Source: Planctomycetaceae bacterium (lineage in GTDB: Bacteria > Planctomycetota > Planctomycetia > Pirellulales > PALSA-1355). Taken from it: a DNA stretch of 64,000 bases. Under the pieces are notes generated by a model. That model saw nothing but the letters and a program-made list of their open reading frames with translations. It was not told where the DNA came from and did no database searches. The translations under genes were made by a program, and so were the position numbers. Where the stretch lies: positions 125 to 64,124 of the forward strand of contig PLYM01000138.1 in NCBI GenBank assembly GCA_003153375.1, read 5' to 3'. Positions 10,365-32,956 of the stretch are shown here, piece by piece (the stretch's first letter is position 1; the number at the start of each line of letters is the position of its first letter).

Positions 10365-12161
10365 ATGGCGGAAGCGTCGATCGCGGCTGAACAGCCTCCT
10401 GTCGAAACGCACGAACTGGCTCCCTGGCCTGGTTCGCACGAGATGCCGCGTTGGAACACCGGCCCGCTGATTGACGCGCCGAAGTTCACCTGGAAGAACT
10501 GGTTCGCCATGCTGGGCCCTGGCCTGCTGGTGGGCGGATCGGCCATTGGCGGCGGCGAGTGGCTGGCCGGCCCAGCCGTGACGGCCCGCTATGGCGGCGC
10601 CCTGATGTGGCTGGCCACGCTCAGCATCGTCAGCCAGGTGTTCTACAACATGGAGATCAGCCGCTATGCGCTCTATACGGGCGAGCCGATCTTCACCGGC
10701 AAATTTCGCACGCTGCCCGGCCCGCGATTCTGGTTATTCACGTATCTCTTGCTCGACTTCGGCGCGGTGTTCCCCTACCTGGCCGCCAATGCCGCCACGC
10801 CGCTGGCCGCGATCTACCTGGGACGCATTCCCGACGGAGCCGACGACGAACCGCTGGTGCGCGGGTTGGGCATTTTCGTGTTTCTGCTGGCCATGCTGCC
10901 CTTGATCTTCGGCGGCAAGATTTATGACACGCTGAAACTCGTGATGTCGTTCAAGATCGTGACCGTGCTGGGCTTCTTGCTGTTCGTGGCGATTTTCTTT
11001 TCCAGCGCTTCGACGTGGGTGGAAATCGCCAGCGGGTTCTTCAAGTTCGGCACCGTGCCGATTCGCCAGGGCGAGGATCTAAATGGCAACGGCGTGCTCG
11101 ATGAGGGCGAGGATTGGGACCGTGACGGGCATCTGGACGTGGCCGAAGAGAAGCTGCCGCCCACGATCGATACCGATGGCGACGGCAAGCCTGATGCCTG
11201 GGCCGATATCGACGGCGACGGCAAACCCGATAAGTTTCGCGACGTCGACAAGGACGGCGTGAGGGATGGAGACAGCACCGAGAACGTGTTTTCGGCGCTG
11301 TTCCACGGCCGGCCATTCCCGACGATCGACTTCAGCACGATCGCGCTGTTGGCGGCCTTCGCGGCGATTGCCGGGAACGGCGGGCTCTCCAACGCGCCGA
11401 TCAGCAACTACACCCGCGACCAGGGCTGGGGCATGGGCCACCACGTGGGCGCCATACCGAGCGTGATTGGCGGTCACAATATCGAACTTTCGCACGTCGG
11501 CATGGTGTTCGACGCCACGGCCGAATCGCTGCCGCGGTGGCGAAGGTGGTGCCGCCACGTGCTGCGCGATCAGTTGGTGATCTGGATGCCGGCTTGCTTC
11601 TTGGGTATGGCCTTGCCCAGCATGTTGTCGGTGCAGTTCTTGCGGCGCGGCACGGAAGTGAGCGATTGGTACGCCGCCGGCATGACGGCCGACGGTGTGA
11701 GCGGCGCGGTGGGCGAGGCCTGGGGCGTGTTCGCCGGCTCGACCGTCTGGTATCTGACGCTGCTGTGCGGGTTCCTGGTGCTCGCTCCGGCGATGGCCAG
11801 CAGTGCCGATGGCGTGGTGCGGCGCTGGGTGGATGTGGTTTGGACATCGAGCCACACATTGCGAAAGTGGGATACGAAGCACATCCGCACGGTCTATTTT
11901 GGCGTGCTGGTGGGCTTCATCCTGATTGGCCTGGTGCTGCTGTCGACCGGCAAGCCGCTGGGACTGCTGAAGATCGCCACGAACATCATGAACTTCGCGC
12001 TGGGGTTCAGTTGCTTGCACACGCTGGTCATCAACCTGACGCTGCTGCCCCGCGCGCTGCGACCCGGCTGGTTCGCCCGGCTGGGACTGGCCTCGGCCGG
12101 CATCTTCTTTCTGTCGCTGGCCACGATCACGGCCATCGAAACGCTGCGGCCGTATTTCTAG
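10365..12161 (+). CDS. Nramp-related membrane protein with calcium-loop insert
   Basis: A polytopic membrane protein of 598 residues resembling Nramp metal transporters in helix order. In the first helix the usual DPGN is replaced by GSAIGGGEWLAGP, and in the sixth the usual MPH is replaced by GNGGLSNAPISNYTRDQG, so the classical metal ligands are missing. Between predicted helices five and six, residues about 237-307 hold five Asp-rich loops of the DxDxDG type (DTDGDGKPD, DIDGDGKPD and three variants), as in thrombospondin type 3 or EF-hand-like repeats; this loop should face outside the cytoplasm. I start at the ATG at 10365 with CAGGAA upstream rather than the TTG at 10314. A paralogue lies at 29892-31871. 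Substrate unknown. Confidence 0.8.
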   Translation: MAEASIAAEQPPVETHELAPWPGSHEMPRWNTGPLIDAPKFTWKNWFAMLGPGLLVGGSAIGGGEWLAGPAVTARYGGALMWLATLSIVSQVFYNMEISRYALYTGEPIFTGKFRTLPGPRFWLFTYLLLDFGAVFPYLAANAATPLAAIYLGRIPDGADDEPLVRGLGIFVFLLAMLPLIFGGKIYDTLKLVMSFKIVTVLGFLLFVAIFFSSASTWVEIASGFFKFGTVPIRQGEDLNGNGVLDEGEDWDRDGHLDVAEEKLPPTIDTDGDGKPDAWADIDGDGKPDKFRDVDKDGVRDGDSTENVFSALFHGRPFPTIDFSTIALLAAFAAIAGNGGLSNAPISNYTRDQGWGMGHHVGAIPSVIGGHNIELSHVGMVFDATAESLPRWRRWCRHVLRDQLVIWMPACFLGMALPSMLSVQFLRRGTEVSDWYAAGMTADGVSGAVGEAWGVFAGSTVWYLTLLCGFLVLAPAMASSADGVVRRWVDVVWTSSHTLRKWDTKHIRTVYFGVLVGFILIGLVLLSTGKPLGLLKIATNIMNFALGFSCLHTLVINLTLLPRALRPGWFARLGLASAGIFFLSLATITAIETLRPYF

Positions 12162-24617: not shown

Positions 24618-26599
24618 GGCTGTTTCCTCGTAGGAACGGGCGTCTGGTTCGGCACGAGCAAGTCGATCCACAACGATTGCTCGCCGACGTCCAGCAGGGT
24701 CGGTTGGTCGGAGTCGGCGTTGGACTCGGAGTTCGGCACGCGCAGGATCTGCAGGCGCTGGAGCCACTCGTTGCCGGCGCGTTCCACGTAACGCGCCATT
24801 CTATCAGGCCCCAATGCCCATCCGAGTTCCAGCCTGAGGCGGCCGTGCCGGTCGTGGAACCGGAGCGTGGGTGGGGCTGCCGATGTGCCAGGCGACGTGT
24901 CGGCAATCAGGATGATCGGCGCCGGCGAGGCCAGCCACTCGGCCGTGGCGGACGCGATGCGAGCCAGCGGCCGCCAGTCATAGGCCGACAGAACATGGTG
25001 CAGCGAACCGCGCGTGGTGCGCAGCAAGGTGAAATCGGCCGTGACTTTCTGGGCGTCGCTCACCGAGACGACGCCGGGGCGCGTGGATGGCGACACGCTG
25101 GCGACGGGCACGCCCTCGCGTGGCAATCGATCGAGCGCGGCGAGGCACCGTTGGCGCTCGTCGGCCGTGAGCCAGCGCTCGGCTTTGAGCTGGGCCAGGC
25201 GTTGCTTGACGATCGTGCGGCTAAAGGCCTCGTAGGACAAGAGCGGCGTGCGGTCGACTTCGCCCGGCAGCTTGCCGACGCCCAGCGGCCGGTCGAGAAA
25301 GTGGGCCATGCCCAGCTCTCGCAGCTCGGCTGCGTGGCTCAGGTCGGCGATCGACTCGGCCAGCACGCGACGGGCCATGTCGCGGAGCAGGTTGGACCAG
25401 GGGCGGTCGGCAAACAGCCGGCGCTGCCGCTTCGAGGTCTCGAGGATCTGCTCTTCGGGCACCCGGGCGTAGAGCGCGGGCAGCACACGCGTGTTTTCGC
25501 CCATCGAGGTTGGCGCATCGGGCACGCGATGGCCTTCGTATTGCCGGCGAGCCAGAGCCGCGTGGCGCAGCGCCCGGCGCCGCAGCCGCTTTTGTCGCGC
25601 CAGCGGGGCCGAATCGGCTGAGTCGTCAGCAAGAAACAATTCCGGATGCTCCTCGAGCAATCGCAAATAGGCCGTCAGCAGGGCATCCAAAAAGAGCGTG
25701 TCGGGATAATTGGCGCCGAAATTGTGGAACAGTGTCAGGTCGAAGGCGGTCAGATGGCGGCAAAGATGGCGCAGCATGTAACCGAGCGTGTCGATCGCCA
25801 CGCCGGGAGCTGTTGCTGCGCTTTCGACCACGACGGCCACGAACCGCTCGACGAAGCCTGTGTAGGGGGACAACGCAGCGCCGTTGAACACCGCGCGGAA
25901 TAGCGCGGAGCGATCGGCCGAGGCGGCGAGCACGTGCGAGATGGCAGGCACGTCATCAGCGGTTGTGGCGCGCAGCGCGGTCTCCAGCGCCTTGGCGCGA
26001 TGGAGCAATGGCCGGGTTCCGTCGAGCGCGGCCCGCAGGTAGGCCAGCGGATCGGTCCCGGAATGGTCGGACTCGGCGAGGCGCGGCAGGTAGGCGAGTT
26101 GTCCGAGCGAAAAGGCGGGCAGCGGAGATTCGAGCGAGGTGATCGGCAGGCGGCTGGTACCGATGACAGACAAGAGCACGTAGCTGCTCAGTTCCTCGTT
26201 CAGATCGCCGCGCAGGCCCTCCAGCTCCAGGGTGCCGATCAATTCGGCGACCCATTTTTGCACCGGCCGGGTGAGGATCACGCCGGGCGCGTCTTCGTAG
26301 GCCTCGAAAGCGTGCGTCAGGATTTGTCGCGTGACGAACAGCCGCGCGGGCTCGACCTGAAATTTGAGCGAGATCAACGGCGCCGGCGCTCGCTCGGCGT
26401 CATCGAGATAGACGTGCCATGATGCGAAGCGGGCCCGCGAGCGAGCATGGGCCGGATCGAGCAGGTGGCCGCGAAACACCTCCCAGGGCAAGTCCTCGGC
26501 GACCACGTGTTCGATCCGCAGACGATGACCCTGGGCCACGAAGAAGCAGCCAGGGCAAAGCGCTCGATCAACAGCCGCGCGGACGCTCTCGGAAGTCAT
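24614..26599 (-). CDS. Protein of unknown function, 661 residues
   Basis: I recognise no domain. The protein has no clear signal peptide or membrane helix and is rich in Ala, Leu and Arg. Visible parts: an N-terminal pair of cysteines (CPGC, residues 15-18); a C-terminal half with helical, charged stretches (RQKRLRRRALRHAALARRQYEG); and a beta-rich end (PAPIILIADTSPG, LRFHDRHGRLRLELGW). The ATG overlaps the E2 stop by 4 nt (ATGA) and its stop overlaps the sulfatase start by 4 nt (GTGA), so it is translated as part of the operon. Codon use resembles its neighbours. Function should be sought through the operon context. Confidence 0.8.
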   Translation of the reverse strand: MTSESVRAAVDRALCPGCFFVAQGHRLRIEHVVAEDLPWEVFRGHLLDPAHARSRARFASWHVYLDDAERAPAPLISLKFQVEPARLFVTRQILTHAFEAYEDAPGVILTRPVQKWVAELIGTLELEGLRGDLNEELSSYVLLSVIGTSRLPITSLESPLPAFSLGQLAYLPRLAESDHSGTDPLAYLRAALDGTRPLLHRAKALETALRATTADDVPAISHVLAASADRSALFRAVFNGAALSPYTGFVERFVAVVVESAATAPGVAIDTLGYMLRHLCRHLTAFDLTLFHNFGANYPDTLFLDALLTAYLRLLEEHPELFLADDSADSAPLARQKRLRRRALRHAALARRQYEGHRVPDAPTSMGENTRVLPALYARVPEEQILETSKRQRRLFADRPWSNLLRDMARRVLAESIADLSHAAELRELGMAHFLDRPLGVGKLPGEVDRTPLLSYEAFSRTIVKQRLAQLKAERWLTADERQRCLAALDRLPREGVPVASVSPSTRPGVVSVSDAQKVTADFTLLRTTRGSLHHVLSAYDWRPLARIASATAEWLASPAPIILIADTSPGTSAAPPTLRFHDRHGRLRLELGWALGPDRMARYVERAGNEWLQRLQILRVPNSESNADSDQPTLLDVGEQSLWIDLLVPNQTPVPTRKQP

Positions 26600-27465
26600 T
26601 GCGGCTGTGGCTGGGGATAGAGCATCATGGCCGGCTGCTCCAGGTAGCGGACGATGCGGCCGAGGAACTGGGCAGCCGGGGCACCGTCAAGCACGCGATG
26701 ATCGACGGTCAGCGCCAACCGCAACGTGGGCCGCGCGCAAAGCTGGCCATCGACGACAAACGGCCGCTCGACGATGCGGCCGGCGGTCAGAATCGTGCTC
26801 TGCGGCGGAAAGATGACGGCCGTGAAGTCGTCGACACGGGTGGTGCCCAAATTGCTCAAGCTGCTGGCCACGCCGCGAGTTGAGTCGGCCGAGACTCGCC
26901 CGCCCCGGGCCATGGCCACCGCCGTGCTGCGCAGCCGGGCCAGCTCAAAAATCGTTCGCTGGTCGACCGAGGTGAGCTTGGGAATCAGCAACCCGTCGAC
27001 CAGGTTCACGACCAGGCCCAGGTTGACCTCGCTCAGCCGCTCGATCGTGTCGCCGGTCCACACGGCGTTGGCCGCCGGATTGTCGCGCAGGGCCAGCCCC
27101 ATCGCCCGCAAAATCAAATCGGTGATCGACAGCCGCACGCCGTCACCGATCGGCGGCCTGGCGAGCAGTTCCTGCCGCGCGTCGAGCAGCGGCGAGGCGT
27201 CAAGCTCGGCCCGCAAATGGAATTGCGGCACGGTTGCGGCGCTAGTGGCCGTGACGCGGGCAATCGAACGTCGCATGGGCGAAAGCGTCGGGCCATTGGT
27301 GGGAGTCGCCGCGTCGAAAGCGCGCAGCACGTCGGCCTCGACGATCCGCCCGCCGGGACCGGTGCCGGAGATCTTGCGAGGGTCGAGACCGCGCGATTGC
27401 ATGGCGCGGCGGGCGCGGGGCGAGGCGGCGATGCGCGGCGTTGTCGGAGTTGTTCGGCGTGTCAT
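26596..27465 (-). CDS. 2-oxoacid dehydrogenase acyltransferase (E2) without lipoyl domain
   Basis: A 289-residue E2. It begins with a peripheral-subunit-binding domain (SPRARRAMQSRGLDPRKI with GTGPGGRIVEADV, residues about 15-47), a short linker, then the acyltransferase core ending in the active-site H256 and D260 (DHRVLDG). Typical E2 proteins are 400 residues or more because a lipoyl domain precedes these parts; here none is present, and the lipoyl domain is instead on the E1 protein immediately upstream. The ATG at 27465 overlaps the E1 stop as ATGA. No E3 gene is visible in the window. Which 2-oxoacid is used cannot be told. Confidence 0.88.
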   Translation of the reverse strand: MTRRTTPTTPRIAASPRARRAMQSRGLDPRKISGTGPGGRIVEADVLRAFDAATPTNGPTLSPMRRSIARVTATSAATVPQFHLRAELDASPLLDARQELLARPPIGDGVRLSITDLILRAMGLALRDNPAANAVWTGDTIERLSEVNLGLVVNLVDGLLIPKLTSVDQRTIFELARLRSTAVAMARGGRVSADSTRGVASSLSNLGTTRVDDFTAVIFPPQSTILTAGRIVERPFVVDGQLCARPTLRLALTVDHRVLDGAPAAQFLGRIVRYLEQPAMMLYPQPQPQ

Positions 27466-29882
27466 GATGATTTCGCGGGGCGAATCGTGCCCAGTTGTTG
27501 GCCGAGCAGAACGACCGTTTCGGCTTCGGCGAGGATTTCGATCAGTTGGCCGGCCAGGGGCGCGTCGACGTTCATCACGGCCTTGTCGGTTTCCACTTCG
27601 ACGACCGGCTCGTCCTTGGCCACGCTGTCGCCAACTCGCTTGAGCCACTGCACGACGCGGGCCTCGGTGATCGTCAGATCTTGATTCGGCATCACCAACG
27701 GCACGCCGCTGGCGCTCGACGCCGGCGACGACTTCGGCGGAGACGCTTTTGTAGCGGATTCCGGGTTCTTCGCCGCGCCACTAGCCGTCCCACTGCCCGG
27801 CGCGGCCGCCGGGACGCGACGCTTCACTTGCAGCCGCCGTGGAATTTCGGGCTCACCGGCCAGCACGGCCTTGGCGGCCGAGACGATACGCGCGGGCGTG
27901 ACCACCACGGCGTTTTCGTGCGCGGGACTGAACGGATGGCCAACTGGGTCAGTGTGCAGCCGGCCCACCGGGGCATCGAGCTCGTCGAAGGCGTGCTCCA
28001 TCACGACGGCCGCCAGTTCTCCCCCGAGGCCGCACATCGAAAAGCCCTCATCGACCACCAACAGGTGGCCGGTCTTGGCGACGCTGGCCACGACCGTGTC
28101 GACGTCGAGCGGGACGATCGTGCGCAGGTCGACGATCTCGCAACTCACCCCCTGCTGCTGGAGCTGCTCGGCCGCTTCGAGGCAGCGGGCAATCGGCGAG
28201 CCGCAAGAGACGATCGTCAGATCGGTGCCGGCGCGGACGATATTGGCGACGCCAAACGGCACCAGGTGCTCGCCGACGGGCACCTGACCCTTGGTCGGGA
28301 AGAGGGCCTTGGGTTCCAGAAAGATCACCGGATCGTGCGAACGCAGGGCCGTTTTGAACAAGCCCTTGGCGTCGGCGGGGCTCGAGGGGATGACGACGAT
28401 CAGCCCGGGACAGTGGGCCCAGATCGGGTGGTAGCTACCGCTATGATGCGGGCCGGTGTTCTTGATCGTGCCCCAGGCGGCCCGCACGATCATCGGCACG
28501 CTGGTCTGGCCGTTGCTCATGTAGCGGAGCTTGCCGGCTTGCTCGATGATTTGCGAGGCGGCCTCGAACATGAAATCGGCAAACATCACATCCGACACGG
28601 CGCGGCAGCCGCTGGCCGAGGCCCCCGCGGCGGCGCCGGTGAAGGCCAGCTCGGCGATCGGCGTGTCGATCATCCGCTGGGCGCCGAACTCGTGCCACAG
28701 GCCCTTGGTGTGGGCGAAGCTGCCGCCGCGCTCGCCGGTGCCCTCGCCCAGGTAGATGATGTGGGGATCGCGGCGCATTTCCTCGGCGATGCCGTCGCGA
28801 ACGGCTTCCAACCAGGTTTGCGTTTTCATTTCGGCCGTGGCCGGCGCCGGCTCGACGGGCGGGTGCAGCGGCTCGGCCCAAACGTGGTCGTTGGCCTGCG
28901 CCGGATCGGGATGCGGCGAGGAGCGCGAGTACTCGACAGCTCGCGTCATGCGCTCCTCGACCTGGCGATCGATCGCGTCGAGCTGGTCGGCCGTGGCGTG
29001 CTTCTTGTCGAGCAGCTTCTGGCGGAAGGTGGCGATCGGACAGCGGGCCTTCCAGGAGTCCAACTCCTCCTGCGTGCGATAGGTGCCGGTGAGCGGATCG
29101 CCTTCGTGGTGGCCGACGACGCGATAGGTCTTGGACTCGATCAGCGTGGGGCCGCCACCAGCGCGGGCCCGTTCGACGGCCTTGCGGGTAACTTCCCACA
29201 CGGCCGCCACGTCGTTGCCGTCGACCGCGACGCCGGGAATGCCATAGGAGGCGGCCTTGGTGGCGATTTCGGTGTTGAGGGTGGCCATCGTCAGCGGCGT
29301 GGCCGTGGCATACTGATTGTTCTCGCAGACGAACACGACCGGCAGCTTTTGCACGCCGGCCAGATTAAGCGATTCGTGAAACGCGCCGTGATTGACCGCG
29401 CCGTCGCCAAAGAAGGCCACGGCCACCTGGTCGGTGCCACGCGTGCGAGCGCTCAGCCCCAATCCGACCGTGGCCGGCAAGCCGCCGCCCACGAAGCCGT
29501 TGGTGCCGAACAGGCCAACAGCGAGCTTGTAGAGGTGCATGCTGCCGCCCCGCCCGCCGCAGCAGCCGCCCGAGCGGCCATAGAGCTCGGCCAGCACCTC
29601 GTCGGGCGAGACGCCCTTGGCCAGAGCATGCCCGTGTCCCCGGTGGGTGCTGGTGATCCAATCGTCGGCGCGCAGATGCGCGCAGACGCCGACGGCCGTG
29701 GCTTCTTCGCCGACATAGAGGTGAATGAAGCCGGGCATTTCACCCTTGCGATAGACGTCTTGCGCCGTAAGCTCGAAACGGCGAATGAGCATCATCTGCT
29801 CATAGAGCCTGACGAGCTCGCGGGCGTCCAACACACGTTTGCCGGACGCGCCGGCGGGCGATCGATCGAGCGTAGCACTCAT
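27462..29882 (-). CDS. E1alpha-E1beta-lipoyl fusion of a 2-oxoacid dehydrogenase
   Basis: One 806-residue chain holds three parts. Residues 1-340 are E1 alpha with the thiamine diphosphate motif (FFGDGAVNHG to CENNQYA). From residue 352 (MKTQTWLEAVRDGI) to about 690 is E1 beta. After an Ala/Ser/Pro/Lys-rich linker the last ~90 residues are a lipoyl domain, with the predicted lipoyl lysine K767 in VETDKAV. Fused alpha/beta E1 is known in several phyla; the added lipoyl domain pairs with an E2 that lacks one. The chain would oxidatively decarboxylate a 2-oxoacid (pyruvate- or acetoin-type) and carry the acyl group itself. It lies 9 bp after the Nramp-related gene and overlaps E2. Confidence 0.9.
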   Translation of the reverse strand: MSATLDRSPAGASGKRVLDARELVRLYEQMMLIRRFELTAQDVYRKGEMPGFIHLYVGEEATAVGVCAHLRADDWITSTHRGHGHALAKGVSPDEVLAELYGRSGGCCGGRGGSMHLYKLAVGLFGTNGFVGGGLPATVGLGLSARTRGTDQVAVAFFGDGAVNHGAFHESLNLAGVQKLPVVFVCENNQYATATPLTMATLNTEIATKAASYGIPGVAVDGNDVAAVWEVTRKAVERARAGGGPTLIESKTYRVVGHHEGDPLTGTYRTQEELDSWKARCPIATFRQKLLDKKHATADQLDAIDRQVEERMTRAVEYSRSSPHPDPAQANDHVWAEPLHPPVEPAPATAEMKTQTWLEAVRDGIAEEMRRDPHIIYLGEGTGERGGSFAHTKGLWHEFGAQRMIDTPIAELAFTGAAAGASASGCRAVSDVMFADFMFEAASQIIEQAGKLRYMSNGQTSVPMIVRAAWGTIKNTGPHHSGSYHPIWAHCPGLIVVIPSSPADAKGLFKTALRSHDPVIFLEPKALFPTKGQVPVGEHLVPFGVANIVRAGTDLTIVSCGSPIARCLEAAEQLQQQGVSCEIVDLRTIVPLDVDTVVASVAKTGHLLVVDEGFSMCGLGGELAAVVMEHAFDELDAPVGRLHTDPVGHPFSPAHENAVVVTPARIVSAAKAVLAGEPEIPRRLQVKRRVPAAAPGSGTASGAAKNPESATKASPPKSSPASSASGVPLVMPNQDLTITEARVVQWLKRVGDSVAKDEPVVEVETDKAVMNVDAPLAGQLIEILAEAETVVLLGQQLGTIRPAKSS

Positions 29883-29891
29883 GCGCGAATC

Positions 29892-31871
29892 TCAAAACAG
29901 GTTAATGGTGGCCAGCACGTCGGCCATCACGATCATGCTGATGCCGATAAAGAACACTCCACACAACAAGACGCCAATCTGCAATAGCCAATGCGGCTGC
30001 AGCGGCTTGGGCAGCAGCACCCGATTGGCATAGAGCGCGTGCAGGGCCGAGAAACCGAGGGCCACGTTGCCCAGCACGGCGCCAATCTTGGCGATATCGA
30101 GCGCCGGCAGCCGCCAGAGTACGAACAGCCCCCACACGGCATAGATACTGAGGATGCTGTAGTAGACGTACTTGACGCGCGTGCCGCCAAGTCGTTGCAG
30201 GCGGCTGCTGGCGGTCCAGAAGATGTCGGTCCAGCGGCGGGCAATCTGATCGCCGACGCTGATCTGACCGGGCGCGAGCACCAGGAAGCCGCAGAGCAGC
30301 GTCAGCACCCAGAACAAGTTGCCATACTCGGGATAGCGCTGCGCAATGCCCTCGGCCGTCATCGCCGCCACGCGATCGCCGGCCACGGTCGCGTTGCGAA
30401 TGAATTGAAGCGACAACATGCAGGGCAGCGCCATGCCGATGAACGAAGCCATCATCCAGACAGCCGTCTGATCGCGCACGATGTGGCGAATCCAACCTCG
30501 CCAGCGACTGAGGTTCGGCGCGTCGATGGGAAATACCTCGCCGACGTGCGAGAGCGAAATGGGCAGCCCGCCGATGGCGCTGGGAATGGCGCCGACGTGA
30601 GCGCCCATGCCCCAGCCCTTGTCGCGCGTGTAGTTGGAAAACAGGGTGTTGGCCAAACCGCCCGAGCCGGCGATGGCGATAAACGCCACGAGCATGAACC
30701 AATCGAGCTCGGGCAGCCGGCCGTGCTCCCAAAAGTAAGCCCACAGGCTCTTGTGCTCGACGCCCTGGTGTTCGATCAACTCGGTGAGGACGTCGCGATA
30801 CTCCGGCGGCACGGCGGCCAGGCTCTGATAGGTGCGCGTGATGCCGTCGGGCTCGGTGATCGAGAATTCGTCGGGCTGCCAGCCCTCGTCGTCGATCGCG
30901 CCGCGGCCCGAGAGCTTTGCGCCGCTTTCGCCGCGCGTTTCGAAGAAGAATTCTCGCGCCTTGAGCATCCGCTGCGCGCGGTCCTTCAGGTCGTCGAACT
31001 TGGGCTTCAGTTCCTCGGGCAGGTTCTTGAGGCGGTTGACGTTGTTGACGCGGAACTCGCCGATGATGGGGCCGGTGGGCTCCTTGGTGCCTTTGATCAG
31101 GTAGGTGTCGTCCCCCTCGCGCACGGTGAGGGCGAAGTGGCGGTCGACGACGATCGTGTCGGCCCGCTGTGGATAGTTGCCGAAGCGGAAGAAGCCGGTG
31201 AAGACTTCCCAACCGACGCTGGGCGAAACCATGAACACCGTCATGAACGAGAGGTAGCCCAGCACCAGCACGAGCTTGAAGCTCATGATCTTTTCGAGCA
31301 TCCGATAGACCGTGCCGCCGAAGATCAAGGGCACGAAGCACAGCACGAAGATAAGGAAGCCCAACGCGCGAACCAGTTGAGCCTCGGTGAGCAGGGTTCC
31401 GGCAACGTGCAGGCTGCCCTCGCCGGGCAAATGTCCCAGCACGGCGGCGGCCAGTGGCACCGCGGCGTTCGAGGCGTTGTAAGGCCAGATCGAGGCGATA
31501 TCCAGGATGGCATAGATGCCGATCCAGAACATTGGGCCGGGATTGGTGCGCAGGCCGCCGACGATGATCGGCTCGCCGCAATACAGCGTATAGCGCATCA
31601 TCATCAGGTTGCAGAACACTTGCAGGATGATGCTGATCGACGCAAGCCAGAGCAGCGTGGCGCCGTACTGGGCGCTGACGGCCGGTCCGAAGAGCCACTC
31701 GCCCGAGCCGATCGAGGTTCCCGCCAGCACGACGCCAGGGCCGAGCAGGCCGACCCACAATCGCCATCCACCACCGGGCGGCGGCGGCAATTGGCCGACG
31801 TGCCAAGGCGCCAGCCGTCCGCCGGGAACCGTCGGTCGGGAATCGTGTGGGGATGCCGCCTCGTCAGACAT
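29892..31871 (-). CDS. Nramp-related membrane protein with large loop insert
   Basis: A 659-residue paralogue of the protein at 10365-12161. Shared signatures are GSGEWLFGP in helix one, where DPGN would stand, and NYTRDKGWGMG with HVGAIPS after helix six. The classical Nramp metal ligands are absent. The loop before helix six carries a different insert of about 150 residues, mixed alpha/beta (EEGDDTYLIKG-like, LKPKFDDLKDRAQRML, FSITEPDGITRTYQS), with no calcium loops. It is the first gene of the operon with E1, E2, an unknown protein and a sulfatase, so it may import or export something linked to that metabolism. Start ATG at 31871. Substrate unknown. Confidence 0.8.
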   Translation of the reverse strand: MSDEAASPHDSRPTVPGGRLAPWHVGQLPPPPGGGWRLWVGLLGPGVVLAGTSIGSGEWLFGPAVSAQYGATLLWLASISIILQVFCNLMMMRYTLYCGEPIIVGGLRTNPGPMFWIGIYAILDIASIWPYNASNAAVPLAAAVLGHLPGEGSLHVAGTLLTEAQLVRALGFLIFVLCFVPLIFGGTVYRMLEKIMSFKLVLVLGYLSFMTVFMVSPSVGWEVFTGFFRFGNYPQRADTIVVDRHFALTVREGDDTYLIKGTKEPTGPIIGEFRVNNVNRLKNLPEELKPKFDDLKDRAQRMLKAREFFFETRGESGAKLSGRGAIDDEGWQPDEFSITEPDGITRTYQSLAAVPPEYRDVLTELIEHQGVEHKSLWAYFWEHGRLPELDWFMLVAFIAIAGSGGLANTLFSNYTRDKGWGMGAHVGAIPSAIGGLPISLSHVGEVFPIDAPNLSRWRGWIRHIVRDQTAVWMMASFIGMALPCMLSLQFIRNATVAGDRVAAMTAEGIAQRYPEYGNLFWVLTLLCGFLVLAPGQISVGDQIARRWTDIFWTASSRLQRLGGTRVKYVYYSILSIYAVWGLFVLWRLPALDIAKIGAVLGNVALGFSALHALYANRVLLPKPLQPHWLLQIGVLLCGVFFIGISMIVMADVLATINLF

Positions 31872-31933: not shown

Positions 31934-32149
31934 CATCCGGCTCGCGCGACAGTTAAGCATGATTGGCCGCGCGTGCGACACTCATCGTAATGGCCTCCAA
32001 GGGCGCCCGCAAGCAAGCCAAATCGCGCTGGGCTCGGTCCCTTGCGTGCTCCTGGAAAACGGACGATACTTCACGTCCGACAAGCGGCGGGCACCCCTCG
32101 ACGCGGGGCGCCAACGGGCCATTTCCTCCTCGACCTTGCGGACTATTCG

Positions 32150-32956
32150 ATGAAGATCATTCGCTATCAAGACGTCAAATATCAGGTCAAGTACGCGGCC
32201 CAGCAGGGCGACGGCACGGCCAAGGAAATCGCCGGCGACCTGTTCGGTAAATTCGAAGTCACGGACAACACGGCCGACGTGCGGGCCGTGCTCGCGCCGC
32301 TGGTGCCGACGGGCATTTTGTGCATCGGGCTCAACTATCGCCGCCATGCCGCCGAGGGCAACGCGCCGATTCCCAAGTGGCCCGTGCTGTTCATGAAGCT
32401 GGCCAGCACGGTGCAAAACCCGGGCGACCCGATCGTGCTGCCGCGGCGCCTGAAGAGCGAGCAGGTTGACTATGAGTGCGAGCTGGCCGTGGTGATCGGC
32501 AAGCGGTGCAAGAACGTCTCACGCGAGAAAGCCTTGGATTACGTGCTGGGATATACCTGCGCCAACGACGTCAGCGCCCGCGACTGGCAGAAGGATTTTG
32601 GCGGCAGCCAATGGTGCCGTGGCAAGACGTTTGACACGTTCTGCCCGCTGGGCCCCTGCCTGGTGACAGCCGACGAGCTGACCCAGCCCAATTCGCTGGC
32701 GATCAAGACGATTCTCAACGGCGAGGTGATGCAGGACTGGAACACGAACGACATGATCTTTGACGTGCCGACCTTGATCGAGTTCCTCAGCGGCAGCACC
32801 ACGCTGATGCCGGGCACGGTCATCCTGACCGGCACGCCGCACGGCGTGGGCATGGCCCGCAAGCCGCCGTTGTTTCTGAAGAACGGCGACAAGGTGACCG
32901 TCGAGATCGAGAAAATCGGTTCGCTGGTCAACCCCGTGGTCGACGAGATGGTCTAG
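32150..32956 (+). CDS. Fumarylacetoacetate hydrolase family protein
   Basis: A 268-residue FAH-family enzyme. The fold's key blocks are present: CIGLNYRRHAAE, DYECELAVVIG with the metal-binding glutamates, and YTCANDVSARDWQ. The C-terminal TGTPHGVGMARKPP is also typical. Members hydrolyse or decarboxylate 2,4-dioxo acids in aromatic or sugar-acid breakdown. The start at ATG 32150 is chosen over an in-frame ATG at 32042 because similarity begins at MKIIRYQD. It is divergent from the Nramp-led operon. Specific substrate unknown. Confidence 0.88.
   Translation: MKIIRYQDVKYQVKYAAQQGDGTAKEIAGDLFGKFEVTDNTADVRAVLAPLVPTGILCIGLNYRRHAAEGNAPIPKWPVLFMKLASTVQNPGDPIVLPRRLKSEQVDYECELAVVIGKRCKNVSREKALDYVLGYTCANDVSARDWQKDFGGSQWCRGKTFDTFCPLGPCLVTADELTQPNSLAIKTILNGEVMQDWNTNDMIFDVPTLIEFLSGSTTLMPGTVILTGTPHGVGMARKPPLFLKNGDKVTVEIEKIGSLVNPVVDEMV

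Follow-up and report, generated by a model that had tools for sequence, protein, structure and literature searches.

In the 64,000-nucleotide stretch of planctomycete DNA analysed here (the window; contig PLYM01000138.1), an open reading frame (ORF) that begins with ATG at 10365 and ends at 12161 on the plus strand encodes a product of 598 residues plus stop. The predicted protein is a Nramp-fold transporter that carries, after its fifth transmembrane helix (TM5), an insert with five Dx[DN]x[DN]G motifs (11076-11276). The ion bound by this insert is most likely Ca2+, which is abundant in most waters, in a structural or modulatory role. We favour, at somewhat better than even chances, a reading in which Ca2+ would order the insert into a periplasmic module with a stabilising or modulating effect on the transporter.

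10365..12161, plus strand: Nramp-fold transporter with predicted extracytoplasmic calcium-loop insert, 598 residues (ORF, NCBIfam, AlphaFold 2, Foldseek).

A relationship to Nramp proteins had been proposed in an earlier sequence-only reading of this DNA, and it is borne out by both profile and structure comparisons. The protein scores 149 bits with the NCBIfam model Nramp_1 (NF037982), whose cut-off is 50, and there is no match to the Pfam Nramp model PF01566 at E≤1. The AlphaFold 2 (AF2) model, built with 68 relatives, has a mean predicted local distance difference test score (pLDDT) of 89.4 and a predicted template modelling score (pTM) of 0.89, and a Foldseek search of the PDB places DraNramp, BfraNramp, EcoDMT and EleNRMT at the top, with probability 1.0 and TM-scores by target of mostly 0.62-0.76. 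As modelled, this protein has the LeuT/Nramp fold of a secondary transporter and comes from a clade that lies outside the SLC11 metal importers; by its sequence, it belongs neither to these importers nor to the Nramp-related Mg2+ transporters (NRMT).

The five DxDxDG-type repeats that the sequence-only reading had placed in one loop are all present, against a mean of 0.17 motifs in composition-preserving shuffles of the 75-residue loop, and they are unequal in form and conservation.

11076..11111, plus strand: loop 1, DLNGNGVLDEGE, complete 12-residue EF-hand-type loop, conserved in 23 inserts of the same length.
11112..11147, plus strand: loop 2, DWDRDGHLDVAE, complete 12-residue EF-hand-type loop, all six ligand columns invariant in the 23 inserts.
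11169..11204, plus strand: loop 3, DTDGDGKPDAWA, DxDxDGxxD, with D1, D5 and G6 invariant, D9 at 91% and position 3 always D or N.
11205..11240, plus strand: loop 4, DIDGDGKPDKFR, lineage-specific, with D1, D5 and D9 in only 39-43% of inserts.
11241..11276, plus strand: loop 5, DVDKDGVRDGDS, DxDxDGxxD, with D1, D3, D5 and D9 invariant.

In loops 1 and 2, every EF-hand ligand position is filled (1, 3, 5, 6, 9 and 12, including Glu12), and this is conserved in the 23 inserts. Loops 3-5 form a tandem array of 12-residue Dx[DN]xDGxxD units. The conserved set comprises loops 1, 2, 3 and 5; loop 4 of the window protein is kept in a minority, is not conserved beyond close relatives, and is often swapped for a KDxxGxPIKF-type stretch in other inserts. 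Among window ORFs of at least 150 residues, one other contains the Dx[DN]x[DN]G motif, in a single copy.

Scanning 84,980 genomes yielded 204 candidate relatives, and the best 80 loci were analysed; the 83 aligned rows include the query, as well as split or second rows that come from two loci. At least one motif occurs in 70 of these 83 rows, with a mean of 3.3 (0.12 in shuffles) and a range of 0-7. In the 23 same-length inserts, 17 of the 22 EF-hand ligand columns are invariant, compared with 5 of the 71 other columns (Fisher p=3e-10). Of the five ligand columns left, four reach at least 91% conservation and one holds D or N in every insert. Ratios of nonsynonymous to synonymous substitution (dN/dS; Nei-Gojobori) are 0.10-0.16 for the insert, 0.09-0.20 for the membrane core and 0.35-0.45 for the N-terminal tail, and are read as relative values because some dS are near saturation. 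The insert is under purifying selection. A neutral linker, that is, an acidic Asp/Gly-rich spacer without ion binding, would accommodate the variation in insert length and loop number and the absence of the insert from some relatives; it is rejected, with hardly any probability left to it, by the ligand-specific invariance and the low dN/dS. Nor is the loop a lineage-specific linker without conserved aspartates, an outcome that the sequence-only reading had named as fatal to its proposal, because the aspartates are conserved. Furthermore, a search with the insert profile returns one match per insert-bearing genome, namely the transporter, plus two weak matches in large other proteins; the hypothesis of a mobile domain was rejected, as the profile finds little else than the transporter.

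The helix order of the AF2 model positions the insert between TM5 (residues 186-212) and TM6 (residues 323-352), the site expected from Nramp topology. Because loop 5-6 is extracellular in the homologous Nramps (PMC6398981), the insert is, by homology, predicted to lie on the periplasmic side of the membrane, again as had been proposed. Two short strands bracket it in the model.

11052..11066, plus strand: first neck strand, residues 230-234 (DSSP on the AF2 model).
11271..11285, plus strand: second neck strand, residues 303-307 (DSSP on the AF2 model).

We read these strands as a predicted β-hairpin neck with the insert at its tip. The adjoining residues G229, P232 and N307 are kept with or without the insert. 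Within the full-protein model, the insert has a pLDDT of ~90-95; modelled by itself, it has 78-92 across its core.

The position of the insert raises the possibility of a calcium gate or sensor. In DraNramp, movement of TM6a pulls TM5 through the extracellular loop 5-6 (PMC6398981). Because the TM5-TM6 linker thus couples the gates, Ca2+ bound in the insert could conceivably alter how the outer gate, TM6a, is coupled to the inner gate, TM5, and external Ca2+ would then switch transport on or off. The insert ligands are under strong selection, and two of the loops are complete EF-hand loops that include Glu12, as in regulatory EF-hands; both points are consistent with such a role. If it were true, EF-hand-type loops grafted into TM5-TM6 would make this LeuT-fold protein, from a Nramp clade with divergent substrate, a transporter gated by external calcium. 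However, the neck that closes the insert persists in insert-less transporters, so the TM5-TM6 linkage would be independent of the insert. Insert-less orthologues are common, and repeated presence and absence with 0-7 loops would be odd for an essential gate. In addition, external Ca2+ is usually no fast signal for free-living bacteria. Given the persistence of the neck and the frequency of insert-less orthologues, we regard gating as unlikely. Since the neck is conserved in either case and the insert has been repeatedly lost from near-identical transporters, the insert is probably at most a modulator of the transport cycle. Whether an extracellular ion can tune alternating access through loop 5-6 is a question that this protein opens, and it is directly testable here because the insert lies in the linker that couples the DraNramp gates.

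Relatives have 0, 1 or 3-7 loops, and the difference can be abrupt between otherwise similar proteins. The relatives L046 (125-residue loop) and L071 (17-residue loop) have cores that are 83% identical, and L006 (75-residue loop) and L028 (11-residue loop) have cores that are 79% identical. Reduced forms, with a 26-residue loop containing a single loop 1-type EF loop, belong to a related set of Schlesneria-like sequences. On a core tree that excludes the insert (113 rows, quick search, support by Shimodaira-Hasegawa-like approximate likelihood ratio test only), the states of no, single and multiple loops need 15 changes, and the starred branches force at least seven for the no-insert state. 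These change counts alone do not separate gain from loss; that the ligand pattern and the neck are shared speaks for a single module with several losses. From its clean absence in close orthologues, the insert is apparently dispensable. Relatives with different loop numbers are natural controls, in which domain deletion has in effect been done several times already.

In the reading that we favour, of a Ca2+-ordered periplasmic module, Ca2+ in the periplasm would fill the EF-hand-type Dx[DN]xDG loops at the tip of the neck and thereby give the highly acidic insert the fold of a rigid cap or stalk. Such a structure could stabilise the transporter on its outer face, or dock a partner or polymer, and its effect on transport would be at most modulatory. 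Several points weigh against this proposal. A cap or stalk is one guess among several structural roles, and the strong conservation could just as well reflect regulation, given the mechanical importance of this linker. Taken by itself, the insert has no meaningful structural counterpart in the PDB, and its Pfam matches, those to EF-hand models included, all stay below cut-off, so the case for its mode of ion binding is made from linear motifs.

Indeed, the likeness to known Ca2+-binding loops is partial. Loops 1 and 2 fill the ligand positions of canonical EF-hand loops with their Dx[DN]xDG motif (PMC3123361), whereas no helices flank the EF-type loops in the AF2 model, which lacks the helix-loop-helix of an EF-hand protein, and the Pfam matches stay below the EF-hand cut-offs (weak EF-hand_5 matches in 19 of the 23 inserts). 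The other sub-threshold matches among these 23 members are to FG-GAP, TSP_3, TSP3_bac and Excalibur; most of the matched models are Ca2+-binding motif classes. Loops 3-5 resemble thrombospondin type 3 and bacterial TSP3 repeats as tandem DxDxDGxxD motifs 12 residues apart, but weak matches are found in just 5-6 of the 23 inserts (best E 0.99 for TSP_3 and 0.15 for TSP3_bac), which does not place the insert among thrombospondin type 3 repeats. A GTDP-type signature is typical of bacterial TSP3, and it is not seen in the insert. A limited literature search found no description of an EF-hand-type module inside a LeuT-fold transporter.

The membrane core has also diverged at the metal site, as seen in a mixed MAFFT alignment with canonical Nramps of the same order.

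10548..10559, plus strand: GGGE (residues 62-65) of TM1, where canonical Nramps have the DPGN metal-binding motif (alignments with canonical Nramps).
11331..11420, plus strand: TM6, residues 323-352 (AF2 model, alignment).

G62, G64 and E65 are invariant in 68 relatives, and the canonical GATVMPHN of TM6 is replaced by AIAGNGGLSN at 11364-11393. The classical DPGN and MPH ligands are therefore both missing, as the sequence-only reading had stated. The binding-site Asp of SLC11 is reported to be universally conserved and required for transport (PMC8806188), and with DPGN aligned to GGGE, this Asp corresponds to Gly62 here. A classical divalent metal is consequently an unlikely substrate, and the earlier suggestion of a different transported species is a fair inference from the missing canonical ligands. 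Glu65 might face the substrate.

A further possibility is that the acidic loops concentrate Ca2+ or another cation at the mouth of the transporter, as substrate or co-ion. Residues 213-322 contain 27 D/E against 11 K/R, and the conserved Glu65, which in TM1 takes the place of the Asn metal ligand, could serve to bind a cation. On the other hand, the canonical metal ligands are absent, insert-less orthologues are common and kept, the conserved ligand geometry is specific beyond mere acidity, and Rfam detects no riboswitch in the window or in 10 relatives. We consider such a cation trap highly doubtful.

The protein resembles SLC11/Nramp transporters (MntH, DraNramp, BfraNramp) in its fold, in the aligned GPG-rich start of TM1 and in its outside TM5-TM6 loop, and differs from them in GGGE for DPGN, in the lack of MPH and in the predicted Ca2+-loop insert of ~75 residues. 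With NRMT, represented by EleNRMT, it shares the fold (7qia, probability 1.0) and a place outside classical SLC11. The NRMT signature is DxxG in TM1 and TxxA/T in TM6, with the binding-site Asp kept (PMC8806188); the window protein departs from it with Gly62 in place of the Asp and an acid one turn later (Glu65). Cellier described a PF01566 'outgroup', neither SLC11 nor NRMT, that is closest to Slc11 and lacks its Mn and proton features (PMC9606685). As far as the available part of that description allows, the GxGE relatives found here fit it, while that part of the account mentions no such insert. The insert-bearing protein would thus mark a widespread Nramp-fold clade without metal ligands. 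The window's order also contains further Nramp-like subfamilies without the DPGN metal site (L148-L162), with the TM1 motifs GSGEL, GTGELL, GPGT, GPGS and GAGS.

The window encodes a second member of the family, with a different segment at the equivalent site.

29892..31871, minus strand: paralogue of 659 residues, same transporter family (sequence comparison).
30756-31178, minus strand: unrelated segment of ~141 residues at the TM5-TM6 site of the paralogue, conserved in relatives.

The comparison with this paralogue, which had been proposed as a check, shows that its segment has no DxDxDG motif and no Pfam match. A third subfamily of this transporter has no insert at TM5-TM6. Together, these observations indicate that the TM5-TM6 tip tolerates domain insertion. 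They also bear on a docking or adhesion role, in which the loops, once loaded with Ca2+, would attach to an S-layer, a polysaccharide or a partner protein on the cell surface, with the transporter serving only as their anchor. An accessory module of this kind would fit the modular presence and absence of the insert and the unrelated domain that occupies this position in the paralogue; related arrays of Ca2+ loops are present in thrombospondin type 3 repeats and in biofilm-associated surface proteins, and loops 3-5 of the insert profile weakly match a biofilm protein. Against it, no conserved partner-like gene neighbour is present at the window locus, inserts of the common class keep closely to one length, and the core of the transporter is fully conserved, which makes docking as the sole function quite improbable.

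The insert cluster is kept in many planctomycete and some acidobacterial relatives. Of the seven acidobacterial loci, six (L057-L060, L062 and L101) form one supported clade, and its nesting within a planctomycete-dominated tree suggests that they were acquired by horizontal transfer. Contamination is an unlikely source, as the seven loci lie in separate assemblies, including a 5.1-Mb chromosome (L058).

Gene neighbourhoods vary. In the close relative L034, the set of short-chain dehydrogenase/reductase, transporter, DUF4139-like gene, amidohydrolase and major facilitator superfamily gene is kept; in L035, the DUF4139-like neighbour alone is kept, and farther relatives differ, so we draw no substrate from gene context. 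The paralogue adjoins genes for a fused E1/lipoyl 2-oxoacid dehydrogenase (27462-29882, minus strand), an E2 (26596-27648, minus strand) and a fumarylacetoacetate hydrolase family protein (32042-32956, plus strand), which may hint at an organic-acid-related substrate. In about 15 relatives, the transporter gene stands beside a MotA/ExbB-like proton-channel gene (PF01618), together with genes for two membrane-anchored coiled-coil proteins, ExbD-like by eye, and a protein of ~1400 residues without a Pfam match. This gene set, not present at the window locus, is found at L038, L050, L055, L067, L069, L074, L075, L078-L080, L082, L083, L085, L090, L093 and L104.
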